Positions 29,047-61,202 of a stretch of DNA of 64,000 bases are shown piece by piece. The DNA lies in assembly GCA_027366525.1 (NCBI GenBank), contig DAHXKG010000001.1, positions 1-64,000 of the forward strand. Reading direction: 5' to 3'. The stretch comes from a candidate division FCPU426 bacterium. GTDB lineage: Bacteria; Oederibacteriota; Muellerivitia; Muellerivitales; DAHXKG01. A program made the translations under genes and the position numbers. Positions within the stretch are counted from its first letter, which is position 1; the number at the start of each line of letters is the position of its first letter. A model generated the notes under the pieces. It ran no database searches, was not told where the DNA came from, and saw only the letters and a program-made list of their open reading frames with translations.

Positions 29047-29096
29047 TTATTTTGACTTCGTCTTTAGTATCAATAATTTAAAGTATTAAAAGAATG

Positions 29097-29909
29097 TCAT
29101 AAAGATTTACGATTTGATGAATACGGCGCTCTTCCTGAAAAATCAGCATTTGAAGTCCGCCAAGAACTTATGCCGGAAATTTTTCCTTGAAAGTAATTCT
29201 CCCAAAATTGTTGATCACGAATGGGAATTCCCTCATTCCATTTCATCCAATCTAATGGAGTCTGAATTTCATTAGAGCATGCGATTAATAAAAAGCTGCC
29301 ATTCGCCTTGCTTTTAAATCCAATTTCCACAAAGTATTTTTTCCCAGGTGACGGAACACTTAAATATCGCTGTAATTCATTAACATTTAATTCTATTTCC
29401 GAAATAAGAATGAGAGCATTTAGATTAGTGTCCACAATTTGATACATTCTCAAAACAAGCTGCGCTTTCATAGACTTCATCATCTTAATTTTGGATTTTG
29501 AAATTTCCCAGTGAGCAAAAATCACATATGGATCACGTGGTAAAATAAAAATCCAAGTGGCATCTGATTCTTTTTTAAAATCAGGAATCTGAACTGGAAA
29601 TCCAGGACGCGGTAAAAATTGTTTAACGGATCGCTCTTCATTTCTTTTAGCTTTTTGTACTTCCGTTAATATTTTTTTTGAATTTTTAGGATGAGCTCGT
29701 TTGGTTTTTCTCAATTTAAACACTTGAGATTCTAGCTGGATAACAGATTTTGCCTTTGTTAAGCTATTAGCTTTTTTTAGACGCAATCCAATTTTTTTTG
29801 TACTCGAGACATTCTGAACCGGTGTTGAGTTCAGACTATTGGATTTTCGAACCACACGTTTCTTTTTTATATTTTGATTTTTATCACTATCATCTTTTTT
29901 TCTTGGCAT
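29097..29909 (-). CDS. DUF4912 protein linked to GH57 branching enzyme
   Basis: 270 residues from the ATG at 29909, which has AAGG upstream; an in-frame start 14 codons earlier has no support. The first 120 residues are very basic, Lys/Ser/Asn-rich and probably disordered. The second half is DUF4912: WIFILPRDPYVIFAHWEIS, then a beta-rich segment ending in IACSNEIQTPLDW. The function of DUF4912 is not established; it may bind glucan or regulate the branching enzyme that follows it by 50 bases. The basic tail could contact nucleic acid or an acidic polymer. Confidence 0.78.
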   Translation of the reverse strand: MPRKKDDSDKNQNIKKKRVVRKSNSLNSTPVQNVSSTKKIGLRLKKANSLTKAKSVIQLESQVFKLRKTKRAHPKNSKKILTEVQKAKRNEERSVKQFLPRPGFPVQIPDFKKESDATWIFILPRDPYVIFAHWEISKSKIKMMKSMKAQLVLRMYQIVDTNLNALILISEIELNVNELQRYLSVPSPGKKYFVEIGFKSKANGSFLLIACSNEIQTPLDWMKWNEGIPIRDQQFWENYFQGKISGISSWRTSNADFSGRAPYSSNRKSL

Positions 29910-30398
29910 AATTGAAACCTTATTTAAACCATTTATTCTTTTGATTATCATCTATCTAAAATCTAAAATATTCAATATCTAATTCTCATGTTGATTCTTT
30001 TGAATTTAAACGTTAAACAGAATATCCATTTTTATAATTACTCTTGCAAACAAAAGTAATTTGTATCATTCCAAGCCTTAATTATGTATAGTTCGTTGTT
30101 TCGCAATGATTTTTGGTATTCAAAATGGCCTAAACTAACTTTTAATCTCTGTTTGTTCAAAATCGAAAAATTTTTTAAATTCTGTACCAAAATTATCCGA
30201 CACCGATTTTTACCAAAAACATTTGGATGGAAATCAATAAATTCACATTTTTTATCAACACTTCAAATTCAAAATAACTTCATACCCATCATTGCTACTT
30301 GAGTAATTTTGACTATTGCACCATAAACTAATCTTTCAAACATCAATCAATCGATCTCAAAATGAAAAGCTCTTTACTATTTATCAAATTATTAAACC
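29910..30398. other. 489-base gap without a convincing gene
   Basis: AT-rich spacer between the DUF4912 gene and the DUF190 gene, both on the minus strand. A 72-codon plus-strand frame at 30084-30302 lacks a Shine-Dalgarno sequence and is rich in Phe and Lys as expected from random AT-rich DNA. No RNA gene, strong hairpin or clear promoter is seen, though one for the DUF4912/GH57 pair must lie here. Confidence 0.5.
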
Positions 30399-42341: not shown

Positions 42342-43115
42342 ATGAAAAAAAAAACTTCCATTCACAAAAAATTACTTCTATTTCCACTTTTTTTAATATT
42401 ACTTGTTCCCTTCGTTGCTTTTTCAAAACCGATTTTATATCATCCCCAACATCTTTTTAAAAAATTAAATGGAGTTATTAAAGGATGCATTCATGTTTCG
42501 GCCTCCCTGCCACCGCCACATGCAGCATACTCTTATGCAACACTCTACTCACAGCTATTCCCAAATAAAAATACTCATGCCGTAACGCTTGCATCGCCGC
42601 GGTCCATATACGAAGTCTTTGTTTATCTTAACCATGTTTCTGGATATTTTCATCCGCCTGCTAATCCCGCTACCATAATAATTCACGACAACCACTTCGC
42701 ACCTGAGATTCTTCCAGTGCTAGCTGGTGGATTTGTTAAATTTGAAAATTTGGATTTTAGAAATTATAAATTATATTTTCATTCATATCTAGATAACTAT
42801 CGTTTCACTCGATCGATTAATCTCAATAAGAGTATTAGTCAAAAAATGTGGAAACCACAGTTTATAAAAGTCACTTTAAAAAGCCATTTACTCCATTTTC
42901 ATCATGCATATATTTTTGTTGTTCAAAACCCATATTTTGATATTTGTTCCCTTAACCAATATTATCATATCGACCATGTTCCACCAGGTCACTATGTGCT
43001 TACCGCATGGAGTTATTATTGGAAAACTTTCCGAAAATCAATTGATATTCATTCAGGAAAAAATTTGAAGTTAAATATAACTTTTACTAAGGTAAAATCT
43101 TTTGAAAAACCATAA
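42342..43115 (+). CDS. Periplasmic cupredoxin-like/regulatory-domain protein
   Basis: 257 residues with a signal peptide ending near VAFSKP. The body resembles the cupredoxin-plus-carboxypeptidase-regulatory proteins seen beside membrane sensors: EVFVYLNHVSG, then NHFAPEILPVLAGGFVKFENLD (cupredoxin strand order), then NPYFDICSLNQYYHIDHVPPGHYVLTAW (the transthyretin-like domain). The usual copper ligands are not kept: the Cys-x2-His-x2-Met position reads SHLLHFH. The family assignment is from pattern memory and is moderate. It overlaps the downstream cyclase-type sensor by 14 bases, so it probably serves as its periplasmic partner. Confidence 0.55.
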   Translation: MKKKTSIHKKLLLFPLFLILLVPFVAFSKPILYHPQHLFKKLNGVIKGCIHVSASLPPPHAAYSYATLYSQLFPNKNTHAVTLASPRSIYEVFVYLNHVSGYFHPPANPATIIIHDNHFAPEILPVLAGGFVKFENLDFRNYKLYFHSYLDNYRFTRSINLNKSISQKMWKPQFIKVTLKSHLLHFHHAYIFVVQNPYFDICSLNQYYHIDHVPPGHYVLTAWSYYWKTFRKSIDIHSGKNLKLNITFTKVKSFEKP

Positions 43116-44820
43116 TAAACATTTAAAATTCAATTGGCGTTTTTTATTTTTTATTCTTCCAATCATTCTATTTGCTGGTTCACTACTGATACTATTAAAT
43201 ATCTCTAAAAATTTCATTGCTCCCAAAACATTTACTACCCAAAAAGATCGGGTTTTGGTTTCTGAAATCCTTCGGCAAAATGACCAATTGCTTATCGCCA
43301 AAGCATCAATTTTATTAAATAATCCCTTGCTTATTCCAAATATTCGTATGGCCCAACTACATCCCAGACATTTTATTCATTACAGCAGCAAATGGAAAAA
43401 AAATCTTCATGTCTCTTTTTTAGTTCTGACAACAACAAACGGAAGGGTTTTATTTCCTTCAACGAATTCTAAAACTACCAATCATGTTCAAACTAAATCT
43501 AACCACTACAATATTGCCCAGGCTATGCACGGTCTACCCACACAGGGTATTTATTTGATTCAAAATCAATTTTATGATCTTCTGACCACGCCTGTTTTAA
43601 ACCACTATCAACGATACGGAATTTTAATCATTGGAATCCCACTCGGATCCATCATAAATCAATTACAACACATCACACGTCAGAAAATACTTTTCAATTT
43701 CAATCATCAACTTTGGAGGACTTCCAAACAAAATATAATGGTAAAAATCCATAATCCTTTAACCTTGACTAAAAAATCAAATGTAGATTCCAACAGCGTT
43801 TTAGTATTTTCAAATAATCATCATAAATATCTTGCTTCAAACCTCGTATTCGCAAGTCTAAATCCAAACAAAAAAATAAAAATTATTTTCCTAAAAAAAT
43901 ATTTTCTAAATTCACACTTTCTTTTAAATCAATTACAAATTGCTATATTAATTTTGATGTTTTTTTTAGGACTTTTTTCGCTAATCCTTGGAATGAATGT
44001 AGAAAAAAAATATTCTTCTCAATTTCAAAAATTAAATAATGCATTTCAAGAAGTGTCTCATGGGAATTTTGATTTTTCAATTTCAGTTCCATTTCAAAAG
44101 GAGAATTCGGAAACTTTCGAGTCCTTCAATCAAATGCTTGGAAATTTAAAACAAAAAAATAGAATTCAAGAGATTTTGGGGAAAAATATATCTGCAGATG
44201 TTGCTGCAAAATTATTAAATTCTCAAGATTTTTTTTCATTACAAGGCGAAAAACGTGAATGTTGTTTTATGTTTATTGATACTCGAGGATTTTCTGACAA
44301 TATTGAAAATAAAAATCCCATACAATTTTTAAAAGAAGTTAATGAATTTCTTGAACAAATGATTGAAATCATCTTTAACTATGAAGGAACCGTGGATAAA
44401 TTTGTTGGTTTTTCTATTTGTTCAATCTGGGGAGCCCCAAATACCTTATTAAACAAAGAGACAACTGCAATAAATGCTGCAATTGCTATTCAAAAAAATG
44501 TAATAGATTACAATATCACGAGACTTAAAAAAAATCTTCAGCCCATCACTCTCGGTATTGGTTTATCAAACAACTGGGCCATTACAGGAAATCTAGGATC
44601 AAAAACCCGTCGAGACTATACAGCCATAAGCTTAGAAACACAGGTGACTGAATTTTTATCGCATCACGCAGAAAATGGAGAAATTCTAATATCTGAAAGA
44701 CTATTTGAAAAAATAGCACAGGCAACTCAATGTTCACCTCGACAACCTCTTTGGTACCCTCCTATTTCTCAATTCATAAAAGTTTATCATTTTGACCGCA
44801 TTTTAAAAAGTGATGATTAA
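43102..44820 (+). CDS. Membrane sensor with degenerate class III cyclase domain
   Basis: 572 residues: membrane helix 13-33, a periplasmic sensor domain to about 277, second helix 278-297, HAMP-like linker to 350, and a cyclase homology domain 380-545. The first metal Asp (Asp393, FIDTRGFSD) is kept, but the second is lost: the usual KFxGD reads KFVGF (Phe437). The IGDxVNxAAR segment reads ISLETQVTEF, so the Asn and Arg of catalysis are Gln514 and Phe518. It is therefore probably inactive as a cyclase and may bind nucleotide or act as a dimer partner. The start is TTG 43102 with AAGG upstream. Confidence 0.85.
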   Translation: MKNHNKHLKFNWRFLFFILPIILFAGSLLILLNISKNFIAPKTFTTQKDRVLVSEILRQNDQLLIAKASILLNNPLLIPNIRMAQLHPRHFIHYSSKWKKNLHVSFLVLTTTNGRVLFPSTNSKTTNHVQTKSNHYNIAQAMHGLPTQGIYLIQNQFYDLLTTPVLNHYQRYGILIIGIPLGSIINQLQHITRQKILFNFNHQLWRTSKQNIMVKIHNPLTLTKKSNVDSNSVLVFSNNHHKYLASNLVFASLNPNKKIKIIFLKKYFLNSHFLLNQLQIAILILMFFLGLFSLILGMNVEKKYSSQFQKLNNAFQEVSHGNFDFSISVPFQKENSETFESFNQMLGNLKQKNRIQEILGKNISADVAAKLLNSQDFFSLQGEKRECCFMFIDTRGFSDNIENKNPIQFLKEVNEFLEQMIEIIFNYEGTVDKFVGFSICSIWGAPNTLLNKETTAINAAIAIQKNVIDYNITRLKKNLQPITLGIGLSNNWAITGNLGSKTRRDYTAISLETQVTEFLSHHAENGEILISERLFEKIAQATQCSPRQPLWYPPISQFIKVYHFDRILKSDD

Positions 44821-46324: not shown

Positions 46325-48076
46325 TCAAAATAAAAAACTTTTCAATTCATTCGAAATATTATCATGAATCAATTGAGAAACCTCTTGTGAAGTTCTCATT
46401 TTAAGTGCTTCCTGTGCAATAAATTTTGATTGATCCATTGAAATCATTCGAATAACTGTCTTAATCACTGGAATCACAGTCATACTACACGATAATTCAT
46501 CTAACCCTAATCCAAGTAATAAAGGAATAAATTTCGGCTCGCCAGCCATTTCACCACACATGCCTACCCATTTTCCATTATTATGTGCTGCATCAATGGT
46601 CATCTTAATTAATCGAAGAATTGCTGGGTTTAAAGGATCATACAAATATGCTACTTCTTCGTTAATGCGATCTACTGCTAAAGTATACTGAATTAAATCG
46701 TTTGTCCCTATAGAAAAAAAGTCCACTTCTTGTATAAGAATATCTGCTAACAATGCCGCTGATGGGACTTCAATCATGGCCCCCAATTCAATATCATTTT
46801 TAAATGGCGTGTTTTCCGCTTGTAGCTCTTCCATACAAATACGAATATATTTTTTGGATTCTATGAGTTCATTAACCGAAGAAATCATTGGGAACATTAA
46901 TTTTAAATGTCCATATACCGCCGCGCGAAGAATCGCACGAATTTGCTTTTTGAAAATCTCAATATCTTTTAAACAAAGACGAATAGCCCTAAGTCCTAAA
47001 AAGGGATTCAATTCCTTATATGGATTTAAATGGTCTAAAAATTTATCACCGCCTAAATCTAATGTTCTAACAATTGCTTGTCCCTGTCCTATTTTCAGCG
47101 CAAGCTCTTTGTAGGATTCAAATTGCTCTTCCTCAGATGGAATTTCTTCACGATTTAAAAACAAAAATTCCGTTCGAAAAAGTCCAACTTCCTCAGCACC
47201 ATGCAAAAAAACATCGTCCGTCTCTGTTGGTAATTCAATATTTGCAGCTAATCGAATATAATGGCCATCGAGAGTTTTCGTTTCTAATGCTTTTACATCT
47301 TCCAAACTTTGTTGAAAATTGCGAAAATGCTCTTGAACAATTTGGTAATTTTTCAAGCTTTGGGGAGACGGGTTAATAATAACAATTCCCTTATTACCAT
47401 CCAAAATAATCATATCGCCAGTTTGGACAGTTTCTGTTAACCCTGTAACACCAACAACGGCAGGTAGCCCTAATGATCGAGCAACAATAGTCACATGAGA
47501 GGTCCTGCCCCCAATATCAGTCGCAAATCCCTGTACCACATCAGTTGGTAGATTCACGGTATCAGTTGGTGAAAGATCAATGGCTAGAAGTACAACTTCT
47601 CGATTTAACTTTTGAAGTTGATCTCGTTCCCAGCTACCCAGATTTTCAATAATTTTTTCTCCAACATCTTCAATATCACTAATTCTCTCTTTAAAAAAAT
47701 CATTCCCAATAGTGCTTAAAACCTTTTTAAATTGGCTTAACTCCTCATGGATAAGAAATTCAGCATTTAAACATCGTTTTTGAATGGATTTTGGAATGCC
47801 TTCTGTAAAAACCGGATCCTCTAAAACAACTTGATGTGCCTTAAAAATGGATGCATGTTCTGCATCCATTTGTTCTTTAACTTTTTTTTCTAATTCGAAA
47901 ATTTGAGATTTGGTTTTTTCAATGGCGTTTTGGTACCGCTGAATTTCTAAAGGAATTTCCTCTGAAGTAAGAACACGTCGAGTAATTGTAAATCCCAAGC
48001 GATGGTAGATATAAGCTGGGCCAATAGCGATTCCTGGAGATGCTGGAATTCCATGAAGTTTTTTTTCCAAAGTCAA
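46325..48076 (-). CDS. ptsI: Phosphoenolpyruvate-protein phosphotransferase (PTS enzyme I)
   Basis: General PTS enzyme that takes phosphate from PEP and passes it to HPr. 583 residues. The phosphorylated residue is His194 in DIGGRTSHVTIVAR; the PEP-binding barrel has LFRTEFLFLNR, GLRAIRLCL and the catalytic Cys in GMCGEMAGEP. The start is TTG 48076, only three bases after AGGAG; a TTG two codons further (48070) has a better gap. It lies directly after HPr and closes the PTS operon, cytoplasmic. Confidence 0.96.
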   Translation of the reverse strand: MTLEKKLHGIPASPGIAIGPAYIYHRLGFTITRRVLTSEEIPLEIQRYQNAIEKTKSQIFELEKKVKEQMDAEHASIFKAHQVVLEDPVFTEGIPKSIQKRCLNAEFLIHEELSQFKKVLSTIGNDFFKERISDIEDVGEKIIENLGSWERDQLQKLNREVVLLAIDLSPTDTVNLPTDVVQGFATDIGGRTSHVTIVARSLGLPAVVGVTGLTETVQTGDMIILDGNKGIVIINPSPQSLKNYQIVQEHFRNFQQSLEDVKALETKTLDGHYIRLAANIELPTETDDVFLHGAEEVGLFRTEFLFLNREEIPSEEEQFESYKELALKIGQGQAIVRTLDLGGDKFLDHLNPYKELNPFLGLRAIRLCLKDIEIFKKQIRAILRAAVYGHLKLMFPMISSVNELIESKKYIRICMEELQAENTPFKNDIELGAMIEVPSAALLADILIQEVDFFSIGTNDLIQYTLAVDRINEEVAYLYDPLNPAILRLIKMTIDAAHNNGKWVGMCGEMAGEPKFIPLLLGLGLDELSCSMTVIPVIKTVIRMISMDQSKFIAQEALKMRTSQEVSQLIHDNISNELKSFLF

Positions 48077-48349
48077 TTACTCCTTTTCATTAAATCGGTT
48101 AATGAAAATTTTTTGAATAGCCTCCACGGCTTCCTTAGAATCCTCTCCCTCAGTTATAATTTCCAGTTTACAGCCTTTGGAAGCCGCTAATGTCATTAAT
48201 CCCATCAAACTTTTTACATTTACCATTTGTATCCCGCTTTTAATTGTAATGGAACATTTAAATTTATTGGCAACTTTTACCAATTCCGCTGCAGCTCTTA
48301 AATGTAGTCCTAATTTATTGGTGACTGTTACTTTAGCTGTGAATTTCAT
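48077..48349 (-). CDS. ptsH: Phosphocarrier protein HPr
   Basis: 90 residues from ATG 48349, which has GGGGGA seven bases upstream; an in-frame ATG six codons earlier is less likely. His16 in NKLGLHLRAAA is the PTS phosphorylation site. Ser47 in VNVKSLMGLMTLAA is the regulatory site for HPr kinase, and hprK is encoded upstream in the same cluster, so both sites are expected to be used. Confidence 0.95.
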   Translation of the reverse strand: MKFTAKVTVTNKLGLHLRAAAELVKVANKFKCSITIKSGIQMVNVKSLMGLMTLAASKGCKLEIITEGEDSKEAVEAIQKIFINRFNEKE

Positions 48350-48382
48350 ACTAATATCCCCCATCAATTAGAAGTGGAATGA

Positions 48383-49243
48383 TCATTTGATGCTCGAAAA
48401 TTGAAACGATGGATGAAGTATCATAATCGATTTTCTCAATCGAGGCCAATAAGCTAAAATCATCCCCAACAAAATAATTGAGTATAAAATATGCACTGGC
48501 GTTATTTTTTTATGCAATGCAAATAAAAATAAACCCGTTATCCCCGAAAAAAATAAAATTTTAATTAAAAAAAATTTAAAATCTTGCTGATGAGGATTGT
48601 TGTTCATGAAAATCATTAGTGAGCCTATTAATAATAAAGATAGAAGATGGAGCCCTTGAATCGCACGTTGAAATCGATATTTCTTTAAAACAAGTATCAC
48701 TTGGTCACCATGTTGATATCCCTGAAAAAAACCGTCGATTCTAATATAAAGATGGGCAAAGTTATAAATCACGAGAAAAGTAATGGGGACTATTAAAAAC
48801 CCATATTGATTTTTTTGAAAATAGAATTCAGAAAAATAAAAACCCAATGCGATGAGAACACAGAAAGGTCTGATTGTGGCCCAAAATAAATTATCACCAA
48901 TTGCTGCGAGTGGACCCATCATTCCAATCTTTAAAGCACTAATTTCTTCTTCATGAACTTTTGATTTGAATTTGCTGTTTTTTGATTCCAAATGAACTAT
49001 TGATCCAATAATAAATGAGGCCATATATGGATGTGTGTTGAAGTATTCCATGTGTCTCGACAAAGCACGCGGACAGTCTTTTTTCAAATATAATCGCTTC
49101 ATAATTGGTATCAACGCAAAAGCTACGCCATAATTCAAGTAGCGTTCAAAATTCCAAACACACTGGATTAGAAAAGTACGGATGATAGTATTCCCTATAT
49201 CGATCCAATTTATTTTTCTATTTTCAATGTTTCTATTGATCAT
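48383..49243 (-). CDS. PTS mannose-family EIID component
   Basis: Membrane subunit of the mannose/fructose/sorbose PTS permease, 286 residues. MMGPLAAIGDNLFWATIRPF and YFNTHPYMASFIIGSIVHLE are family signatures; several hydrophobic segments lie in the C-terminal half. It follows EIIC by three bases and precedes HPr by about 30. It works as a complex with EIIC and takes phosphate from EIIB to the incoming sugar. The sugar is not predictable. Confidence 0.92.
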   Translation of the reverse strand: MINRNIENRKINWIDIGNTIIRTFLIQCVWNFERYLNYGVAFALIPIMKRLYLKKDCPRALSRHMEYFNTHPYMASFIIGSIVHLESKNSKFKSKVHEEEISALKIGMMGPLAAIGDNLFWATIRPFCVLIALGFYFSEFYFQKNQYGFLIVPITFLVIYNFAHLYIRIDGFFQGYQHGDQVILVLKKYRFQRAIQGLHLLSLLLIGSLMIFMNNNPHQQDFKFFLIKILFFSGITGLFLFALHKKITPVHILYSIILLGMILAYWPRLRKSIMILHPSFQFSSIK

Positions 49244-49246
49244 GGC

Positions 49247-50011
49247 TTACAGAATCTCGTGTTGAAAATATAAAACATATATCACAAATCCAATTACCAA
49301 AATTGACTCAAATGAATAAATTTCAGAAATATGCATGAATTTAATTACAATGACGACTGCCATCCCTAAAAGTATCAAATAAATCAGTTTAATTTTATTC
49401 ATTAAAAGATGGATTGCTGTTGCACAACCCAAGGCCATTAAAAACCAATTTGAGTATTTCAACCCTTGAATTACTGTCGTCGGCAAAATAACAAATAATT
49501 TTCTAGCCCAAATTACAATTGTTAAACTTAAAAAAAACATTAAGAAATTTTTAATCCATTGCTCGATCAAAACTATTACCCAAATCCATTTGAATTTATG
49601 GATACTTCCTTGTTCCAACAATTTTTGGGCAAATTTCATCCAAAAAACTTGAAGTTTACGAACCCACAGTTCCACGCGTGAACTAGCATATGCAAATGGA
49701 ATCGCTGCTCCGAGGCAATATGTAACTAGCGCTTGCTTTGAATACAGAAGCGTAAGACTCGATCCAAGTGCTACAGCAACAACTGTTAAAAGGGTCAGAT
49801 CAATGGGGATATGGGCCCCAATAGCTAAATCGCCTATCCAAATTATTTCCACCATTACACCAATCGTTAATCCCCAAATAGGCTGTCCCAACAAAAAGCC
49901 AGCTATTGGACCAATTACAATAGGCCTAGAAATCATAAACTGTCCAATTGAAGTTATATCTAAACTTAAAAAAGCCATTAAACTTGATAACTTGATCCAA
50001 GCATTAATCAC
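49247..50011 (-). CDS. PTS mannose-family EIIC component
   Basis: 254-residue polytopic sugar channel. LSLDITSIGQFMISRPIVIGPI near the N-terminus and GLTIGVMVEIIWIGDLAIGAHIPIDLT are typical of the ManY/SorA family. The start is GTG, eight bases inside the GH57 gene. Fully hydrophobic as expected. It is separated from EIIB by the GH57 gene, an order that is not usual in this operon type. Confidence 0.93.
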   Translation of the reverse strand: MINAWIKLSSLMAFLSLDITSIGQFMISRPIVIGPIAGFLLGQPIWGLTIGVMVEIIWIGDLAIGAHIPIDLTLLTVVAVALGSSLTLLYSKQALVTYCLGAAIPFAYASSRVELWVRKLQVFWMKFAQKLLEQGSIHKFKWIWVIVLIEQWIKNFLMFFLSLTIVIWARKLFVILPTTVIQGLKYSNWFLMALGCATAIHLLMNKIKLIYLILLGMAVVIVIKFMHISEIYSFESILVIGFVIYVLYFQHEIL

Positions 50012-52166
50012 GTTTTTCCTTTATAAAAACATTCAAATGCCGTCTCATCACTTCCTGCGACTTTAATTGAACTTTCCAACCTAAAAGAATACAAGAACCT
50101 TGATATACTTTTTCAAATCCACTTTCAGATTGTGAAATTGTTTCAATCGGATATCTCCAAAAAATCATTTTTTCTAATGACTGAAATCCTATTTGGATAT
50201 TCAACCAAGAATCTAAAAATCCCATTTCTTGTACATTTAATTCTTCTCCTATTGAATTCAACTGAGGCTCTTGAAGTTTTCTTTCTTTAACATAGTACGT
50301 TCGATCCGAGCTTGTCCCAGCTAACAGCGTTAAATTCCATTCACTCATAACCAGAAAATTTAAATTATCTTTTGAAAAATTTTCTATCTCATAATCAATT
50401 TCCAATTTAAAATTGCCGGGGAAAAAAACTAATTGTTTAGTAAACCGAACATCAGGGAAAATAGAAATCGGTGCTGAATTCAATTTCAAGCATGATTGTT
50501 TATCAACTGAAATTCTTGAATTTTTAAATTTAAAAGGAACATTTGCCACGGAGAAAAGTGAATTCAATTTACCACTATGCGCTTCCCAAATCGAACTATC
50601 AACTGGCAAAAAATGTTCCAATAAACTCACTCGGTTATACGAATCGTAAAATAGTTTTTTTTCTAATCCCGGTTCTTTGGGCTGAATCAAATCATGAATA
50701 CTTGCAATTTCATTAATACTGTTCCCTTGGGATGCGTTAAATAATTTTTTGTGATAAACCTCTTCACGCCGTGTTAAAACATCGGTCAAATTAATTGGGT
50801 TAGGTAGATAATCTATTTCGCTAATAGTTCCACCTTTCGACGGATTTAAGATAACATGATAAGCATCTGATTCTATAATAATTTCTGAATTGCCATCTTT
50901 ATCAAAATCAGTATTAATAAAATTAATATACTTTTTTTTAGAACTCACAATGGAATCTATCAATTTTTCAGCTTGAATTAATTCACGATATACAGCAAAT
51001 CGCAAATGATTCAAATAAAGCCCACCAAATATTCCATGCCAATATGGACAGTTACATTGACCCCGAAAGAGCGCACGCTGGGCATCTCTAAGTATTTTAG
51101 ACTTTTTTTCAGAAATCGTTCTCTTCGAAATTTTTTGCTGTGCTTCTGCAATTTTATTTGAAACCCATAACATTTTCTTGTGAAGATGGTTGCTTTCACT
51201 ATACTTAATTAAAAAGTTTCTCCAAAATCCACCTTGAAAAAATCGACCATATTTTTCCAATTCATTATTTTGCCTTAGATTGTTCCGAAGCGCATTATAC
51301 TCCACTGCATCGGCCGTTCGCAGCGCCCATTCATTCATCTCGGTATAGGATCCATTCGGTAAATAAACTAAGCCCATGGGTTTATGTGTATCTACAAATT
51401 CAGAAAAAGTGGTCATTAAAACCCAATCTTGATTTTTCTCTAGTGATGCAAAAAAATTCTCCAACCATTTTTGTGTATAAACCCAATCATAAGTATGTGG
51501 CCACCCTCCAAATTTCTCTCCATCATCCATAAGAACAATACATTGATCTCCTTGATCTGTTGCAATGCTTCCTAAATATTCAAAAATTTTATTAACATCC
51601 TGAAAGGGAACTAAATAACGCATGCGTTCCGAAATTGGAAAGACTTTGATCGTTTTCCCCTGTTCTTCCATTTGATAATACCCCAGAAGTTGAGATTCAG
51701 AAAAACCTGTGGATTTAAAATGAGCATCATCAATTGCAATATATTCCACATTTGCTTCTGCAATGACCTTAGTAAGGTGCGTCTCCCAAACTCTTTCGGC
51801 TAACCACATCCCTCGTGGTTGATAATGGAACTGATTCTTAATATAGTTTCCCATCATTTGGATCTGACCCAATTTATCTTGATCTGAAATAATTGGTAGG
51901 ATTGGTTCGTACATTCCTCCTGAAAACAGCTCTACTTGTTTTCGATTTACCATTTGTTTCAAAATGTCAAAATAGCTCGGATGATTTTTCTGTATCCATT
52001 CCAAAAGCGGCCCAGTAATATGAAATGTACATTTGATTTTTGGATGTTGATTTAAAATATTCAAAAATGGATTATATGATTTTTCAAACAAGTATTGAAA
52101 AACTCCATCAAAGTTTCCAACTGGTTGATGATTATGAACGCCAAATATAAAATTTATTTTTTTCAC
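50004..52166 (-). CDS. GH57 4-alpha-glucanotransferase/alpha-amylase inside the PTS operon
   Basis: 720-residue GH57 enzyme of the 4-alpha-glucanotransferase type. FGVHNHQPVGNFD opens the barrel. The nucleophile is Glu124 in GMWLAERVWE and the acid/base Asp214 in VLMDDGEKFGGWP, essentially the positions known from the Thermococcus enzyme. DUF1925/1926-like beta domains follow. There is no signal peptide, so it acts on intracellular glucan. The start is GTG overlapping the EIIB stop (GTGA), and it overlaps EIIC by eight bases, so it is a true member of the operon. Amylase and transferase activity cannot be separated by sequence. Confidence 0.88.
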   Translation of the reverse strand: MKKINFIFGVHNHQPVGNFDGVFQYLFEKSYNPFLNILNQHPKIKCTFHITGPLLEWIQKNHPSYFDILKQMVNRKQVELFSGGMYEPILPIISDQDKLGQIQMMGNYIKNQFHYQPRGMWLAERVWETHLTKVIAEANVEYIAIDDAHFKSTGFSESQLLGYYQMEEQGKTIKVFPISERMRYLVPFQDVNKIFEYLGSIATDQGDQCIVLMDDGEKFGGWPHTYDWVYTQKWLENFFASLEKNQDWVLMTTFSEFVDTHKPMGLVYLPNGSYTEMNEWALRTADAVEYNALRNNLRQNNELEKYGRFFQGGFWRNFLIKYSESNHLHKKMLWVSNKIAEAQQKISKRTISEKKSKILRDAQRALFRGQCNCPYWHGIFGGLYLNHLRFAVYRELIQAEKLIDSIVSSKKKYINFINTDFDKDGNSEIIIESDAYHVILNPSKGGTISEIDYLPNPINLTDVLTRREEVYHKKLFNASQGNSINEIASIHDLIQPKEPGLEKKLFYDSYNRVSLLEHFLPVDSSIWEAHSGKLNSLFSVANVPFKFKNSRISVDKQSCLKLNSAPISIFPDVRFTKQLVFFPGNFKLEIDYEIENFSKDNLNFLVMSEWNLTLLAGTSSDRTYYVKERKLQEPQLNSIGEELNVQEMGFLDSWLNIQIGFQSLEKMIFWRYPIETISQSESGFEKVYQGSCILLGWKVQLKSQEVMRRHLNVFIKEKRD

Positions 52167-52648
52167 AGCTTGATCTCCGGCAAATATTTTTCAAGCATTT
52201 CTTTCGGATCTCCAGGAACTGCTTGAATTTCTAAGTTAATGTGAAACGATTTTAATTTTTTAAAGGCTTCGACTTCTTCTTTTGTAACGCAAATATCACG
52301 ACAAATTTGGACCTTCCCTTCACAATAATGCATTCCACCAACATTAATTGTTTCCAATTTACAGCCTAATTTAACAAACGTTAAAATATCCAAAGGATTC
52401 GAAAAAATCAAAATCGCTTTTTTAGTGCTTTGATCTTTTTGGAAAACATGTGCGCCACCCTCTATTGTCATAAATTCAACGACTAATTTTTCTGGAACTG
52501 CCATCCTCATTAAGGTCTGTTGGGTAGTATCATGTGCTAACAAATCATTGATGACAATAATACGTTCAGCACTAAGAAATGTGACCCAGCCCACAACCAC
52601 TTGTCCATGAATTAATCTATCATCAATTCGAACTAATTGAATGTTCAA
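52163..52648 (-). CDS. PTS mannose-family EIIB component
   Basis: 161 residues, cytoplasmic. His14 in RIDDRLIHGQVVVGW is the phosphorylation site. MRMAVPEKLVVEFM and FSNPLDILTFV are typical. It accepts phosphate from EIIA and passes it to sugar bound at EIIC/EIID. The ATG overlaps the EIIA stop by four bases (ATGA). It ends in a four-base overlap with the GH57 gene. Confidence 0.94.
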   Translation of the reverse strand: MNIQLVRIDDRLIHGQVVVGWVTFLSAERIIVINDLLAHDTTQQTLMRMAVPEKLVVEFMTIEGGAHVFQKDQSTKKAILIFSNPLDILTFVKLGCKLETINVGGMHYCEGKVQICRDICVTKEEVEAFKKLKSFHINLEIQAVPGDPKEMLEKYLPEIKL

Positions 52649-53070
52649 ATTTTCCTCATATTTTTTGACGATTGATCATGCAATAATTTAAAAGAATTTG
52701 TAATACTCTCTTTCGCAGCCTTTTCGGCTTCCAGCGTCAATGTTTTTAAATCCATTTCATGTTGATGTGAACCCACACTAAATAGCATTGGTAAATTTAT
52801 ACCCGTTAAAATAGCCATTTTTTCATTATCGACCATCTTAGAAGCAATATTAAAAGGAGTTCCTCCTAATATATCTACTAACACCAATATTCCATTATTA
52901 GGGCTCAACGCTTCAATTGCAACCGATATCTTTCGCTGCAATGTTTCTGGTGAATCTTCTGATAATAAACTAATAGCTTTTATTTTTTTTGGTTCTCCCA
53001 TAATTAATTTAAAAGCTTCCAAAAAAACATCTGCTAAGTTTCCATGTGTAATAATTATCACACCGATCAT
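52645..53070 (-). CDS. PTS mannose-family EIIA component
   Basis: 141-residue cytoplasmic protein. His9 in IIITHGNLADVFLEA is the phosphorylation site, and LVDILGGTPFNIA is the family's second motif. The fold is that of ManX EIIA. In this cluster it is a separate protein from EIIB, unlike the fused E. coli ManX. It follows the yvcK-like gene by 23 bases. Confidence 0.94.
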   Translation of the reverse strand: MIGVIIITHGNLADVFLEAFKLIMGEPKKIKAISLLSEDSPETLQRKISVAIEALSPNNGILVLVDILGGTPFNIASKMVDNEKMAILTGINLPMLFSVGSHQHEMDLKTLTLEAEKAAKESITNSFKLLHDQSSKNMRKI

Positions 53071-53093: not shown

Positions 53094-54356
53094 TTATCGT
53101 ATTAGCATTTTTACAATTGCTTTGCTTAATTTTTCAGGACTATGCCGAACAAAATTTTCTCGATTTAATAAATTAGCACGAACTAATTTAGGCCCTAAAG
53201 ATTCCACTTCTTTTTGATCAATAATTACTGGTTCTTGTTTGAATTTCAAATATCGATTCAGAAGATAAGAAGGCACCGTCTCCTTATTTGCTAAAACATA
53301 ATGAATGAAATTTGTCGAAGTATGCGCCAGCAAAGCTCTAACATGGTCGGATACGCGAAACGCATCGGTTTCACCAGGTTGTGTCATAACATTACAAACA
53401 TATATTTTTATCGCACGTGCAATTGCAATCGTTTCTGATACTTCTTTAACCAACAAATTTGGGAGAATACTTGTAAATAAACTTCCAGGTCCTAAAACTA
53501 TAGCATCTGCATTCAGAATAGCTTTCAAAACAGCCTTATTGGGATGTACAGACGTTTCTTTTAGCATTAATTGGGCAATCGGAACTTTACTTGCGGAAAT
53601 ATTAGTTTCGCCTGTGATAATTTTTCCATTTGCAAGCTTGGCTTGAAGCGTCATTGAATCAAATGTAACCGGCATAACCGTTCCTCGGCTTGCTAAAACT
53701 TTACTAGACTCTTCTACTGCTCTCCCAAAATCGCCTGTAATTTCTGTCATCACCGTAATAAATAAATTTCCAAAACTGTGCCCCTTTAAATCTCCATGCC
53801 CGTGAAACCGATATTGAAAAAGATCTTTTAAAAGATCCTCTTGATCCGCCAAAGCAACAATGCAATTTCGAATATCTCCTGGAGGTAAAATATTAAAATG
53901 TTTTCTCAGTCTTCCTGAACTTCCTCCATCATCCGCCACCGTTACCACTGCAGTTAAGTTGCTAGTAAACGTTTTTAACCCAAAAAGAACATTCGGAAGA
54001 CCTGTGCCTCCTCCTACAACTACAATTTTGGGGCCACGTTTTAATTTTGCACGTTCATAAGCAATATTTAAAAATTCCTTTTCTCGTTTGGGCAATAGAA
54101 TAGTTAATATGGCATATTGCGATCGTCGGACTGAAAAAACTACACCTGTAATTCCCAAAAAAATAAAAAGGAAGTCTACAAATTTTAATTTTTTTACATT
54201 ATTTGAAAATCGTTGAATCCAACCCGTTCGGTAGTGAAATCCCGTTAATTGTTGACCCATGTACCCAGACATTCCCACACCGATAACAATTACAGACAAT
54301 GCCAAAAGGAACAGCCACCTTTTAAGACGGATTCCAGGATAAAGCCACCGAAACAT
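53094..54356 (-). CDS. YvcK/CofD-like gluconeogenesis factor with membrane anchor
   Basis: 420 residues. From about residue 100: VVVGGGTGLPNVLFGL, VTVADDGGSSGRLR, PPGDIRNC, and FGNLFITVMTEITGD are the YvcK/CofD nucleotide-sugar-binding blocks. Bacillus YvcK binds UDP-GlcNAc and controls carbon flow and wall synthesis. The first 80 residues add two membrane helices (about 13-31 and 58-75), absent from Bacillus YvcK, so this copy should be at the inner membrane. It abuts hprK and the PTS genes. Confidence 0.88.
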   Translation of the reverse strand: MFRWLYPGIRLKRWLFLLALSVIVIGVGMSGYMGQQLTGFHYRTGWIQRFSNNVKKLKFVDFLFIFLGITGVVFSVRRSQYAILTILLPKREKEFLNIAYERAKLKRGPKIVVVGGGTGLPNVLFGLKTFTSNLTAVVTVADDGGSSGRLRKHFNILPPGDIRNCIVALADQEDLLKDLFQYRFHGHGDLKGHSFGNLFITVMTEITGDFGRAVEESSKVLASRGTVMPVTFDSMTLQAKLANGKIITGETNISASKVPIAQLMLKETSVHPNKAVLKAILNADAIVLGPGSLFTSILPNLLVKEVSETIAIARAIKIYVCNVMTQPGETDAFRVSDHVRALLAHTSTNFIHYVLANKETVPSYLLNRYLKFKQEPVIIDQKEVESLGPKLVRANLLNRENFVRHSPEKLSKAIVKMLIR

Positions 54357-55370
54357 TTAGACGGGAGCCTTTAACACATGAGATTTTGTTCTGTGTTTCG
54401 ATTTTTGCATTGACTCATTTTGTAACAATTTATTGACGCGATCTGAAAATTCTTGTGCTGTAAAATACCCCAGTTTTATTAATCGATGATTCATTGCCGC
54501 AACTTCAATAATGACTGCTAAATTTCTTCCTGGACGAACCGGTATAACTAAAAAAGGAAGTGATACATCTAAAATATTATAATATTTTTGAGTGAGCCCT
54601 AATCGATCATATTCTCTTCGATTATTCCACTCTTCCAGTTGGACAACCAACTCAACACGTTTTTTATCACGAACAGCACCGGATCCAAACAAACTTTCAA
54701 TATTTATAATACCCAATCCACGAATTTCCATATGATGTTTTAAAATTTCAGAACATGATCCCATTAATAATTGACTTGATAAACGTTTAATATACACCAT
54801 ATCGTCTGCAACTAAACGATGCCCTCTTTCCACTAAATCTAAAGCACACTCACTTTTCCCAATACCCGAATCACCCAAAATTAATACCCCAACACCATAA
54901 ACGTCTAAAAGAGTACCATGCGTCGTTGATTCAGGAGCAAATTTTTCCTCTAAAAACGTAGAAATCTCCGAAACAAATTTCGTGGTAGGTATCGTAGTCA
55001 AGAAAACAGGTATTTTTTTTTCTTTAGCTTGACGCAGCAAACCTGGATGAGGTTTCATTTTATGTGTAAATATTATGCAAGGAATTGAATATGACATGAT
55101 TTTTTTTAAAATTTTTTCACGTTGAAGAGATGAGAGAGTATATAAATAATCGCGCTCTGTTTTTCCAAGGATCTGAACTCTTTCAAAAGGGAACCACTTA
55201 AACCAACCTGTTAAGGCCATCCCCATCCGGTTAATATCTACCCCAACAATATATCTTTGTGTCATATCTGATTCAGAAGTAAGGGGTGTTAACTTAAGAC
55301 GAATTTTAGCTTCTTGAAAAAAATTCTCTACTGAGAGCTTTTTCATCGATAAAAATTCCATTTCCGACAA
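54357..55370 (-). CDS. hprK: HPr kinase/phosphorylase
   Basis: Phosphorylates and dephosphorylates Ser46 of HPr in response to glycolytic state. 337 residues: catalytic His151 in HGTLLDVYG, P-loop GDSGIGKSE (166-174), ERGHRLVADDMV, and the HprK signature MEIRGLGIINIESLFG. The first in-frame ATG at 55370 has two more ATG codons within nine residues, so the exact start is uncertain. With HPr carrying the Ser site, a full HprK-HPr switch is present. No CcpA is seen. Confidence 0.95.
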   Translation of the reverse strand: MSEMEFLSMKKLSVENFFQEAKIRLKLTPLTSESDMTQRYIVGVDINRMGMALTGWFKWFPFERVQILGKTERDYLYTLSSLQREKILKKIMSYSIPCIIFTHKMKPHPGLLRQAKEKKIPVFLTTIPTTKFVSEISTFLEEKFAPESTTHGTLLDVYGVGVLILGDSGIGKSECALDLVERGHRLVADDMVYIKRLSSQLLMGSCSEILKHHMEIRGLGIINIESLFGSGAVRDKKRVELVVQLEEWNNRREYDRLGLTQKYYNILDVSLPFLVIPVRPGRNLAVIIEVAAMNHRLIKLGYFTAQEFSDRVNKLLQNESMQKSKHRTKSHVLKAPV

Positions 55371-55389
55371 ATCAAACTATAAATGAAAA

Positions 55390-55854
55390 TTAATATTTTA
55401 ATTTTTCTTCATCCTGTATAATCTTAATTACCTCATCAGATGATTTAACCCCAAGCAGCGATTTCCTAAAATACTTGTCTTTTAAAAGGCTAGAAATACG
55501 TGCTAAAGCTTTCAAATGTGCTCCAGCAGCTCCTTCAGGCGCAACTAGTAGAAAAAAAATATTAACTGGCTCGCCATCTAGGGCCTCAAAACTAATACCT
55601 TCCTTTGACAAACCGAATGCAGCTTGAAGTTCAAGAACTGTATCAGACTTACCATGAGGAATCGCAATGCCCTGTCCTATTCCCGTTGATCCCAATTCTT
55701 CTCGTTCAATGAGTGCCTGAAATAACTTTTTTTTATCTTTTATTTTATTAGTCTTAAAAATCAATTCTACTAGTTCTTTGATAACATCCTTTTTGGTTTT
55801 AGACTCCAAATTAATCTTAATTGCATCTTTAGACAAAAGACTTGATATCTCCAT
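55390..55854 (-). CDS. ptsN: PTS EIIA-Ntr
   Basis: 154 residues from ATG 55854, preceded by AGGAGG with a 5-base gap; a longer frame upstream would overlap hpf and is not supported. The phosphorylated His lies in GIAIPHGKSDTV. FFLLVAPEGAAGAHLKALARIS is the family core. It belongs to the fructose/nitrogen EIIA family and here sits directly between hpf and hprK. In proteobacteria PtsN links PEP supply to nitrogen and K+ control; no EI-Ntr or NPr is seen, so the general EI/HPr may phosphorylate it. Confidence 0.92.
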   Translation of the reverse strand: MEISSLLSKDAIKINLESKTKKDVIKELVELIFKTNKIKDKKKLFQALIEREELGSTGIGQGIAIPHGKSDTVLELQAAFGLSKEGISFEALDGEPVNIFFLLVAPEGAAGAHLKALARISSLLKDKYFRKSLLGVKSSDEVIKIIQDEEKLKY

Positions 55855-55879
55855 ACCACCCTCCTGAAGATTTTGGAAC

Positions 55880-56425
55880 TTAAGACTCAGGTTCGATCCA
55901 CCCAATATTTTTATCTTTTCGTCGATAAACCACATTGGGTTTTTCTGTTTCCGCATTCTGGAAAATTAAAAAATCACTATCAGACACCACAAGTTGAGCT
56001 ACTGCTTCTTCAACCGTCATGGGTTTCACACTGTACTGTGTTGATCGAATAATTTTAGGTTTGGAGAGTTTTTCATCATCACTCAAGAAAGCTTTAGAGT
56101 CATCCATTTTGAATTTTTTAATATTTTGATTCTCGCGACGTTTTTTAACTACACGTTTTTTTTGTTTAGAAGCTTGTCGTCCTAATCGTTGAATAGAAGC
56201 ATCAATAGATTGATACATATCCCTCGATATCCCGCGCGAACTTAACTGCATTTTCCCAATCAATAATGTTAATTCACAAATATGTGACTTTTTTTCAAAA
56301 TTTAGAATGACACGAGCTTCAGTAATTTTCCCAATGTATTTTTCTAAATGATAAATTTTCTTTTCAATATATTCTTTTAAAGCCTCAGTTAAAACTTCAT
56401 GGCGACTTGTAATTAAAATATGCAT
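55880..56425 (-). CDS. hpf: Ribosome hibernation factor, long form
   Basis: 181 residues from ATG 56425 (GGGAA six bases upstream). The N-terminal ~100 residues form the ribosome-binding domain (MHILITSRHEVLTEALKEYI). A Lys-rich linker precedes a C-terminal dimerisation domain with KPMTVEEAVAQL and FLIFQNAETEKPNVVYRRKDKNIGWIEP, typical of long HPF that makes 100S ribosomes. Long HPF is the form of most phyla outside the enterobacteria. It is located between rpoN and ptsN as in Proteobacteria. Confidence 0.94.
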   Translation of the reverse strand: MHILITSRHEVLTEALKEYIEKKIYHLEKYIGKITEARVILNFEKKSHICELTLLIGKMQLSSRGISRDMYQSIDASIQRLGRQASKQKKRVVKKRRENQNIKKFKMDDSKAFLSDDEKLSKPKIIRSTQYSVKPMTVEEAVAQLVVSDSDFLIFQNAETEKPNVVYRRKDKNIGWIEPES

Positions 56426-56532
56426 ATAATTCCCAAAATATTTAAAAATAAATTTTAATTTTAACACTCGGATAAATAAAGTCAATCAAATCTTGAACAT
56501 TAATAAAAACAACCTTCTAGTAGTGGATGTTG

Positions 56533-58017
56533 TTATATTTTTTTTCGATAACGCGCAGCCGGAATTTTTAACATTTCACGATATTTAGCAACTGTTCTAC
56601 GCGCAATCATCACACCTTTTTTCCGAAGCCACTCCATAATTTTTTGATCTGAATAAGGTTTCCCCGAAGGTTCCGAAATGAGCAACTCATGGATCATATC
56701 TTTGACACTCCTGGATGAAATGTCCACACCTGTATCTAATTCTAAACTGCTAGTAAAAAAATACTTAAGTTCAAAAAGTCCACGTGGTGTTTGAACATAT
56801 TTATGCGTCGTTACTCGACTAATGGTTGATTCATGCATTCCAATTATTTCTGCAATTTGTTTTAATGTTAACGGTTTTAAATATGAAATACCTTTTCTTA
56901 AAAAATCTTCTTGGATTTTAAAAATGGCTTCCCCTACACGAAAAATAGTTTTTCGCCTTTGCTCAATACTTTTGATCAACCAAAGAGCTGATTGAATTTT
57001 TTTTTCTAAAAACTTTTTTGTTTCAACATCTTTCATATAAACTTTATCTTTTATCAATTTTCTGTAATATTGAGAAATATGCAAATTGGGAATTTCTCCA
57101 TCATTTAACTCAACCACATATCTTCCATCAATCTCCTGAACCCAAAGGTCCGGAACTACATTTTGAACAATCTCACTCGAAAAATTTCTTCCGGGTTTTG
57201 GCTCTAATTTTGATATTAATTTCAGCACTTCGCGGAACTCTTCATCCGTCCACTTCGATTCATTTAAAATGGCTGAATATTTTTTTGAAATTATATTTTC
57301 AAAGTGGTTCAAAATTAACTGATAGGCTTTATTTGCTAGGGTGCCCTTTTTCTCTCTTAGTTGAATCAGCAAGCACTCTCTTAAATTTCTTGCTCCAATA
57401 CCTGCAGGATCCATGGTTTGAATAAGATTGAGTATTTTTTTTATTTTTTGAAATTTAATTTTCTGCAAATTAAATATTTGATCAATTGGATATTCCAAAT
57501 ATCCATTTTCATTAATATTCCCAATAAGAATTTTTGAAATCCATTGTTCTTCATTCGTAAGCGGATATAATGCCAATTGTGCTTTTAAATGGTCCGACAA
57601 TGTTAAAGCATGCTTAACAAACTGATTGGAATACTTATCCGCTTCAATTTCTTCTTGCTCTTGAAATTCAGAAGGATACGTCGAATCATCGGCCTCACTC
57701 AAGTCAGAATAAAAAGAAAGAAAATCTTGATCATGCAATGAATTCTTAGATATTTCTTGACACAAATCAACAGATCGGCGTTCTTCTGTAATTTTATCAA
57801 AGGCGTTTTTGCGATCACCCTCCTTAATGTCTTCAACACTCATTTGGCCTATGTCAACTTCCTCTACCTCAAGCACAGGATTCTGCTGCATTTCTTGATC
57901 TATCCATTCTTTCAATTCCAAAGTAGATAGTTGAAGAATTTTCATTGCCTGCTGAAGCATCGGCGTCATTACCAACCGCTGTTGGAGGCGTTGAGTTAAT
58001 TTGAAGTCCTGTGACAT
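56533..58017 (-). CDS. rpoN: RNA polymerase sigma-54 factor
   Basis: About 494 residues. The Gln/Leu-rich region I (RLQQRLVMTPMLQQAMKILQ) binds activators. The core-binding part follows, and the C-terminal RpoN box (ARRTVAKYRE) reads the -24 element. I take ATG 58017, which has AGGAG upstream; a GTG 12 bases earlier overlaps that sequence. rpoN serves the glnA promoter found in this window. The neighbourhood lpt-rpoN-hpf-ptsN mirrors E. coli, with three genes inserted before rpoN. Confidence 0.96.
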   Translation of the reverse strand: MSQDFKLTQRLQQRLVMTPMLQQAMKILQLSTLELKEWIDQEMQQNPVLEVEEVDIGQMSVEDIKEGDRKNAFDKITEERRSVDLCQEISKNSLHDQDFLSFYSDLSEADDSTYPSEFQEQEEIEADKYSNQFVKHALTLSDHLKAQLALYPLTNEEQWISKILIGNINENGYLEYPIDQIFNLQKIKFQKIKKILNLIQTMDPAGIGARNLRECLLIQLREKKGTLANKAYQLILNHFENIISKKYSAILNESKWTDEEFREVLKLISKLEPKPGRNFSSEIVQNVVPDLWVQEIDGRYVVELNDGEIPNLHISQYYRKLIKDKVYMKDVETKKFLEKKIQSALWLIKSIEQRRKTIFRVGEAIFKIQEDFLRKGISYLKPLTLKQIAEIIGMHESTISRVTTHKYVQTPRGLFELKYFFTSSLELDTGVDISSRSVKDMIHELLISEPSGKPYSDQKIMEWLRKKGVMIARRTVAKYREMLKIPAARYRKKI

Positions 58018-58082
58018 AACCAGTGCCACTCCTACATAAAATAAATTCTCCTTAAATTATACATTCATTTTCACAATAAATA

Positions 58083-59370: not shown

Positions 59371-60474
59371 TTAAACTTTAACTGGAGTTTCAACCTTTTG
59401 ATATTTTTCAATAAATGTATCAACTAAATCTCTGGCTTCAGAATCAGAATATTGAGTCGGAGGGCTTTTAAAAAAATAAGCTGATGGAGCTTCAATTGCA
59501 CCCTTTAATCCAGCATTTAAAGCAAGCTTACAGCACCGAATGGCATCAATCGCAACGCCTGCACTATTGGGTGAATCCCAAACTTCCAATTTTAAATCAA
59601 TTTGCACTGGTATATTTCCAAATTCTCTTCCTTCCATTCGAATATGGCACCATTTCCTATCTTGAAGCCATGGAATATAGTCCGAAGGACCAATATGAAT
59701 ATTTTCGTCATCAATAGGATGTGAAAGTTGACTCACAACCGCTCCTGTTTTAGATATTCTTTTCGATTCTAGCCTGTCGCGTTCTAACATGTTTTTAAAG
59801 TCCATATTCCCACCAAAATTCAATTGGTAGGTACGATCCAAAGTGACGCCTCGATCCGAAAACATTTTTGCTAATATCCGATGCGTAATTGTTGCTCCAA
59901 CCTGGGCCTTAATGTCATCGCCTAATATAGGAAGACCTGCATCAAAAAATTTTTTAGCCCAAGTAAGATTAGATGCAACAAATACAGGCATACAATTCAC
60001 AACACCAACTTTGGCTTCTAACGCTTGTGTCATATAAAAATGAGCAGCTTCTTCACTGCCAACGGGTAAATAATTTACTAAAATATCTGTGTGGGTGTCG
60101 CGCAGTATCTTCGAAACATTTACCGGCTTCTCGGAAGATTCTTTAATCGTTTCACGATAATATTTTCCAAGTCCATCATAAGTAGGCCCACGATAAACAT
60201 GTGCATTGAGTTTTGTAACATCTGAAAACTTTATTGTATTATTTATGGGTGAAAAAATAGCATCCGATAAATCTCGTCCCACTTTTGCATCATCAACATC
60301 AAACGCACATGAAAACTCAATATCGCCAACATGATAATCGCCTACCTTAACATGCATAAGTCCTGGAACCATTGCGTCATCTTCAACATTTTTATAATAG
60401 GTTACACCTTGTACTAAGGACGACGCACAACAACCCACACCAACAACTGCAACTCGAATTTTTGACGATACCAT
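59371..60474 (-). CDS. ino1: Inositol-3-phosphate synthase
   Basis: NAD-dependent synthase converting glucose-6-phosphate to myo-inositol 3-phosphate. 367 residues, the actinobacterial/archaeal length. The NAD site is [44 protein letters not shown] and [11 protein letters not shown] are family blocks. The gene lies 140 bases upstream of the amidohydrolase's side and directly follows a CDP-alcohol phosphotransferase gene in the same direction, suggesting inositol is used for a phospholipid. Rare but known in LPS-bearing bacteria. Confidence 0.94.
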
Positions 60475-60617
60475 GAATTCCTCCTCACAAATTAAACGCT
60501 TATTATTTTTAATATCTAATTCACAAAAAAATCAAGCTTTTTTAACTCATTTTAACTTTTAAACTATTAAATTGATCATACTGTCTTTCATCATCTTCAA
60601 TTTCATGCAACTACTTG

Positions 60618-61202
60618 CTATTGCATGCATTGCCAATTCCAAACAATGCGCTGAATTATAGTTATTAATGATAGAACCATTATAATCCATAAAATAAATA
60701 TTACGTAGTTAGTCAATAATCCTATGCTTAAAAGCAAAACCCGACCAGTTCTCGGTAATACTCCAACCTTACATTCTACTCCTAATCCTTCTGCACGAGC
60801 TCGAGTATAAGACACCATCTGTGATAGCAAACAAACTATAAATGTCAAAATTAATGCCACAAATTGTTGATTTTGATAAAAAAAAACAATAAGTCCTAAA
60901 AAAATCAGTGCTTCTGAAAACCGATCAGCTGTTGAATCCCAAAATGCCCCAAATTTTTTATATAAATTATGGTTGCGAGCTGTGGCCCCATCTAAAATAT
61001 CAAAAAAACCTGATACCAAAATGGTTATTCCCGCCATCAGTAAATTTTGCTTTATTAAGAAAAACAAAGCGAATATTGAAATAAATAACCCAACGGATGT
61101 AATCATATTCGGAGAAACTTGGCTCATTAAACACACTTTAGTTAATGGTAATAACCATTGATCGATTTTTTTTTTCCACGTTAGCTGATCTTTTTCGCTC
61201 AT
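60618..61202 (-). CDS. CDP-alcohol phosphatidyltransferase
   Basis: 194-residue inner-membrane enzyme. The signature D-x2-D-G-x2-A-R-x8-G-x3-D-x3-D is intact: DILDGATARNHNLYKKFG followed by FWDSTADR. Six hydrophobic segments are expected. Members make phosphatidylglycerol phosphate, phosphatidylinositol phosphate and related lipids. Sequence alone does not fix the alcohol, but the adjacent inositol-phosphate synthase makes phosphatidylinositol-phosphate synthase the best guess. PgsA remains possible. Confidence 0.87.
   Translation of the reverse strand: MSEKDQLTWKKKIDQWLLPLTKVCLMSQVSPNMITSVGLFISIFALFFLIKQNLLMAGITILVSGFFDILDGATARNHNLYKKFGAFWDSTADRFSEALIFLGLIVFFYQNQQFVALILTFIVCLLSQMVSYTRARAEGLGVECKVGVLPRTGRVLLLSIGLLTNYVIFILWIIMVLSLITIIQRIVWNWQCMQ

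Follow-up and report, generated by a model that had tools for sequence, protein, structure and literature searches.

The window (the whole 64,000-nucleotide stretch of DNA analysed here, from a candidate division FCPU426 bacterium) carries on its minus strand a series of open reading frames in the order rpoN-hpf-ptsN-hprK-yvcK-EIIA-EIIB-GH57-EIIC-EIID-HPr-EI. Families were assigned to the PTS genes with Pfam and NCBIfam and to the GH57 gene with Pfam, a search of GH57 against NCBIfam giving no match; the names hpf and rpoN are our assumption from homology and conserved position, not from a family scan. The features are as follows.

46325-48076, minus strand: EI (ptsI), PEP--protein phosphotransferase, with the active-site His (TIGR01417, 633 bits)
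48077-48367, minus strand: HPr, with His15- and Ser46-type phosphosites (PF00381, E=4e-29)
48383-49243, minus strand: EIID, mannose family (PF03613, E=6e-48)
49247-50011, minus strand: EIIC, mannose/sorbose family (PF03609, E=1e-24); its start overlaps the GH57 stop by 8 bases
50004-52166, minus strand: GH57, predicted 4-alpha-glucanotransferase of the Thermococcus litoralis type, 720 aa (PF03065, PF09094, PF09095; PDB 1K1W, E=3e-135; E124, D215, K218)
52163-52648, minus strand: EIIB, mannose/sorbose family, phospho-His intact (PF03830, E=1e-46)
52645-53070, minus strand: EIIA, mannose family, phospho-His intact (PF03610, E=3e-23)
53094-54356, minus strand: YvcK/CofD-like UDP-GlcNAc-binding regulator (TIGR01826, 374 bits)
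54357-55370, minus strand: HprK, HPr(Ser) kinase/phosphatase, P-loop intact (TIGR00679, 381 bits)
55390-55956, minus strand: PtsN-like EIIA of the fructose/nitrogen type (PF00359, E=8e-42)
55880-56485, minus strand: HPF, hibernation-promoting factor-like (open reading frame; position kept in relatives by profile search)
56533-58029, minus strand: presumed RpoN, sigma-54 (open reading frame; position kept in relatives by profile search)

An earlier, sequence-only reading had described a GH57 gene built into a mannose-family PTS operon, and its gene order, strand and overlaps are borne out: GH57 starts with GTG and overlaps the EIIB stop by 4 bases, and the overlap with EIIC is 8 bases. The operon is longer than that reading had it: yvcK, hprK, ptsN, hpf and rpoN, in the same orientation, immediately precede EIIA (53094-58029). 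Two known kinds of gene set coincide here. EIIA, EIIB, EIIC and EIID are all of the mannose/sorbose class, with the phospho-His present in IIA and IIB, and rpoN, ptsN, hprK, IIA-Man, a Ser46-bearing HPr and EI occur together, as in a regulatory PTS cluster. None of IIA to IID reaches the NCBIfam cut-offs, which leaves the family scan without a name for the sugar.

Comas et al. (2008, PMC2405797) describe an ancestral rpoN cluster that also contains EI-R, HPr, HprK, PtsN and IIA-Man and that in Desulfovibrio vulgaris is accompanied by a putative mannose-class transporter. The window shares rpoN, ptsN, hprK, IIA-Man, HPr and EI with that cluster and, as in D. vulgaris, has a full mannose-class EII. 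It differs in the addition of yvcK and of GH57 between EIIB and EIIC; the passages on that cluster name no glucan enzyme.

The GH57 product consists of the GH57 catalytic domain followed by the middle and C-terminal domains of the AmyA/4-alpha-glucanotransferase type, all scoring above cut-off (PF03065, 178 bits; PF09094, 109 bits; PF09095, 210 bits). Its sole sequence match in the PDB is the 4-alpha-glucanotransferase of T. litoralis (E=3e-135; PDB 1K1W/1K1X/1K1Y), with which it shares the three-domain family, the catalytic Glu and Asp, the fingerprint Lys and an alignment over residues 2-547; the two differ in that the C-terminal part matches weakly and that the window gene lies in a bacterial PTS operon. 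Both the nucleophile Glu124 (CSR-3) and the acid/base Asp215 (CSR-4) are kept in 103 of the 104 rows of the alignment, the exception being one gap. The catalytic pair had earlier been given as Glu124/Asp214: Glu124 is indeed the nucleophile and the pair is intact, but in the 720-aa numbering the T. litoralis Asp214 aligns to Asp215, and Asp214 of the window protein is its neighbour, the first D of the DDGEK motif. In GH57 4-alpha-glucanotransferases, fingerprint position 23 is a Lys and position 12 is aromatic (PMC6037648). Counted from the catalytic residues, these positions are K218 (Lys in 103/104 rows) and W121 (Trp in 102/104), the remaining rows having gaps. The earlier statement that there is no signal peptide also holds, as the frame opens directly on the first strand of the catalytic domain and leaves no room for one. 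With domains, PDB match, catalytic residues and fingerprint Lys in agreement, the class is well supported by sequence and the protein is very probably a cytoplasmic 4-alpha-glucanotransferase. We rejected one candidate feature, a special inserted segment marking the PTS-linked GH57 copies: the loop-length pattern is unmatched in 10 of 28 rows, and the remainder delimit no group.

We searched 59 genomes, of which 45 (G000-G044) comprise the window's genome and its phylum. This type of GH57 occurs in 20 of the 45, and it adjoins EIIB and/or EIIC in all 18 that have both GH57 and EII genes. Both junctions are visible in 15 of these 18 (in G005 and G016 on separate contigs); in the others a contig end leaves one to view, the EIIB side in G003 and G006 and the EIIC side in G008. 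Since the arrangement recurs in 18 genomes, the placement is not chance. It had been called unusual, and to our knowledge a GH57 gene inside a mannose-type PTS operon is so when set against textbook examples, but in the host phylum it is the rule wherever the enzyme and EII genes co-occur. A search for EIIB in the other two GH57-bearing genomes, G011 and G017, gave no match; their order is hprK-yvcK-GH57-HPr-EI, nearly contiguous from yvcK to HPr in G017 and with gaps of ~1.3-1.4 kb on each side of GH57 in G011.

Among the 25 host-phylum genomes that lack GH57, EIIB is found in 22 (not in G022, G035 or G038). Nineteen of these can be read past EIIB, the contigs of G009, G032 and G037 ending too early, and in all 19 EIIC follows EIIB with no GH57 between them; the intervening gap is ~250-270 bases in two such relatives (L147 and L150). 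The phosphorylation machinery is the same in both groups. The active-site His of EI is present in 15/15 rows with GH57 and 16/16 without, the His and Ser of HPr in 16/16 and 16/16, and wherever sequence is available, both groups retain intact phosphosites in EIIA, EIIB, HPr and EI and an intact P-loop in HprK. Some relatives show local irregularities. G027 has two GH57-EIIC-EIID pieces (contigs C84 and C74; L114 and L124), one on a short contig, which may be either a true duplicate or a contig that strayed in from a related strain. In G030 (L119, 2077-4109) GH57 is split over two frames, by a frameshift or an assembly error. Family f9 (L142, L145 and L149) has a gap of ~0.4-0.9 kb between hprK and yvcK, which in most other relatives nearly abut or overlap.

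The presence of GH57 in the host phylum mirrors that of MalQ (GH77 amylomaltase), an unrelated family with the same proposed reaction. GH77 is found in none of the 20 genomes with GH57 and in 19 of the 25 without it, and no genome has both; five (G013, G038, G040, G043 and G044) have neither, and a sub-threshold GH77 match in G012 was left uncounted. Where both places are known, MalQ lies on a different contig from EIIB. Full-length glycogen phosphorylase is distributed over the genomes much as GH57 is (17/20 with, 1/25 without; the others have a partial-profile phosphorylase or none), a search for it in G018, which has GH57 in the operon, giving no match. Glycogen synthase is present in most genomes of both groups. 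Fisher tests on the raw counts, which ignore relatedness, give 7e-8 for GH77 and 2e-8 for phosphorylase; with phylogenetically independent pairs, neither correlation is significant. On the operon tree, four changes are needed to account for the presence of GH57, and only three independent pairs on supported branches differ in it; averaged over these three, GH77 differs in the opposite way in 0.9 and shows no difference in 2.1.

Free glucose in these cells need not depend on the PTS. Classical glucokinase (PF02685) is found in only 3 of the 59 genomes, but the host genome encodes a ROK-family kinase, which could phosphorylate free glucose, and such kinases occur in 50 of the 59 searched, so a lack of kinase does not force internal glucose through PTS phosphorylation. 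A second GH57, of the branching-enzyme type (PF03065 and PF09210 BE_C), lies ~20 kb from the PTS operon at 27472-29951 on the minus strand, adjoining a DUF4912 protein, and places enzymes for making and for trimming glucan in the same region.

Outside the host phylum GH57 in some cases comes after hprK or before HPr-EI, but it is more often unlinked. In a separate genome collection, 39 of the 80 closest loci extend at least 5 kb on each side of GH57 and 41 are shorter; PTS or HprK genes lie near GH57 in six of the former and two of the latter, one of the two (L097) being the host-phylum member G018. One locus, L092, has the complete gene order of the window. Zixibacteria and Calditrichota have the order (rpoN)-hpf-hprK-(EIIA-EIIB)-MlaD-like-GH57, and Muiribacterium (L095) has GH57-HPr-EI with no EII genes at the cluster. 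The MlaD/MCE-type gene between hprK or EIIB and GH57 is seen in Zixibacteria, Calditrichota and G053, assigned by Pfam in L065 (9102-9998) and by eye in L066, L068, L077 and L126. In 80 genomes of another phylum we find a GH57 match in 64 and a strong match in 61. Of the 61, 13, from seven families, have hprK within 2 kb upstream of GH57 on the same strand (gaps of 181-1968 bases); by a rough estimate that we did not compute, random placement would bring the two genes so close in well under 1% of genomes. HPr, present in 79 of the 80, lies away from GH57 in the linked genomes compared. Overlapping frames occur in several families.

The sequence-only reading had held that GH57 genes lying elsewhere in relatives would speak against a coupling. 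Such placement is absent from the host phylum and in part present beyond it, GH57 being away from HprK in 48 of those 61 genomes and apart from PTS or HprK genes in 33 of the 39 long loci outside the host phylum. Unlinked copies in G045, G055 and G057 have a ROK kinase, a GH57 branching enzyme or a glycogen-synthase (GlgA) match as neighbours. These glucan-gene neighbours, together with the GH77 and phosphorylase splits, support the view of GH57 as a MalQ-equivalent in alpha-glucan turnover.

The history of the insertion can be read in more than one way. A tree of the operon genes from 42 host-phylum members fits an old GH57 lost several times, with gain and loss not separable. The GH57 tree is poorly resolved at depth and does not recover the host-phylum copies as one clade; constraining them to a single clade is borderline rejected (p-AU 0.047, on a reduced set and with a simpler model). 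Several insertions or replacements are possible, and repeated arrival at the same junction, if true, would be more, not less, remarkable.

The explanation we favour, with confidence a little better than even, is that GH57 acts as a MalQ-equivalent in glycogen and maltodextrin turnover, that it is made in an rpoN/hprK PTS operon and that its coupling is to the HprK/HPr relay rather than to the permease. The enzyme would be a cytoplasmic 4-alpha-glucanotransferase, a non-homologous substitute for MalQ that disproportionates short maltodextrins and the branch stubs left by glycogen phosphorylase. Made from an operon in which its frame overlaps its neighbours on both sides, it would be produced at a dose that tracks the PTS proteins. 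The coupling under selection would most likely be to the HprK/HPr phosphorelay, a gauge of PEP, ATP and sugar status, so that the sensor that sets PTS activity would also set glycogen use, whether by simple co-expression or by direct contact with HPr. We favour the relay over the EII permease because GH57 keeps its place by HPr-EI or HprK even where a cluster has no EII genes. Co-transcription, the glucanotransferase activity and control by the relay are what we infer from the sequences, which suggest that glycogen use in these bacteria is controlled through the PTS sensing system. The earlier proposal that PTS and internal glucan are co-regulated gains support from comparative genomics (conserved junction, overlapping frames in several families, retention of GH57 beside HprK/HPr where EII genes are absent, and the either/or with MalQ).

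Among the alternatives, the best surviving is that GH57 is a passenger, an ancient arrival in a highly stable operon, co-expressed with its neighbours but functionally unconnected with the PTS. Because the operon around it is conserved in its entirety, a gene once inside would tend to be retained, and both the absence of GH57 from many relatives and the frequency of unlinked copies elsewhere agree with such a history. We nevertheless think it unlikely: other phyla again show GH57 linked to HprK or HPr, in clusters of different build; GH57 holds its position in G017, although its EIIAB and EIICD flanks are missing there; and several families have overlapping frames.

A stronger variant of the favoured explanation, in which HPr, either as such or in its Ser-P or His-P form, binds GH57 and switches its activity, seems to us somewhat less probable again. 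The HPr of E. coli is reported to bind glycogen phosphorylase and thereby to regulate it (PMC5320558, PMC11046441), which likewise ties the PTS relay to an alpha-glucan-degrading enzyme; there, however, the link is protein binding to the phosphorylase, whereas here it is the operon membership of a GH57 transferase. The E. coli case is a precedent, not evidence, for contact between HPr and GH57. That GH57 lies by HPr or HprK even in EII-less clusters, and that HprK and the Ser46-type site are conserved, would fit direct control, but gene proximity alone shows no contact, and the 48 of 61 genomes with GH57 away from HprK weigh against it. We give a similarly low probability to the boldest version, in which either HPr (depending on its phosphorylation state, which EI and HprK determine) or EIIB would bind to GH57 and gate glycogen and maltodextrin breakdown, as a second, independently evolved PTS-to-glycogen switch in several little-studied phyla.

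Least probable, and in our view doubtful, is a metabolic channel in which GH57 frees glucose in the cell and the mannose-type EIIBCD phosphorylates it with PEP, the EIIB-GH57-EIIC order reflecting joint work: the EII complex looks active from the intact phosphosites of EIIA, EIIB, HPr and EI, GH57 sits exactly between EIIB and EIIC, and the mannose PTS of lactic acid bacteria carries out internal phosphorylation, but G011 and G017 keep GH57 and HPr-EI with no EIIB match, the L095 cluster shows no EII genes, 19 relatives keep EII genes without GH57, and the ROK kinases leave PTS phosphorylation unforced. The kinase survey itself speaks weakly against the free-glucose model. The related earlier suggestion that the PTS sugar is the GH57 product fares worse than coupling to the relay, given the EII-less clusters with GH57 beside HPr-EI (G017 and Muiribacterium) and the ROK kinase of the host.

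Coupling of GH57 to the HprK/HPr relay would bear on a wider question. Clusters of HprK, HPr and EI-R beside rpoN occur widely among bacteria that have few PTS sugars, and their regulated targets are largely open (Comas et al. 2008, PMC2405797). A conserved glucan-processing gene within such a cluster points to glycogen turnover as a concrete candidate. The rpoN/HprK/IIA-Man/EI-R cluster and the GH57 4-alpha-glucanotransferases are each known already; our search of the open-licence literature found no description of a GH57 gene in a PTS operon, nor of the combination.

Genes of other kinds lie on either side of the operon. Just upstream of it, at 59371-61202 on the minus strand, are a myo-inositol-1-phosphate synthase and a CDP-alcohol phosphatidyltransferase, a pair that suggests inositol-type lipids. 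On the other side, at 43102-44820 on the plus strand and transcribed opposite to the PTS operon, a membrane-sensor-like protein carries a class III adenylate/guanylate cyclase domain.
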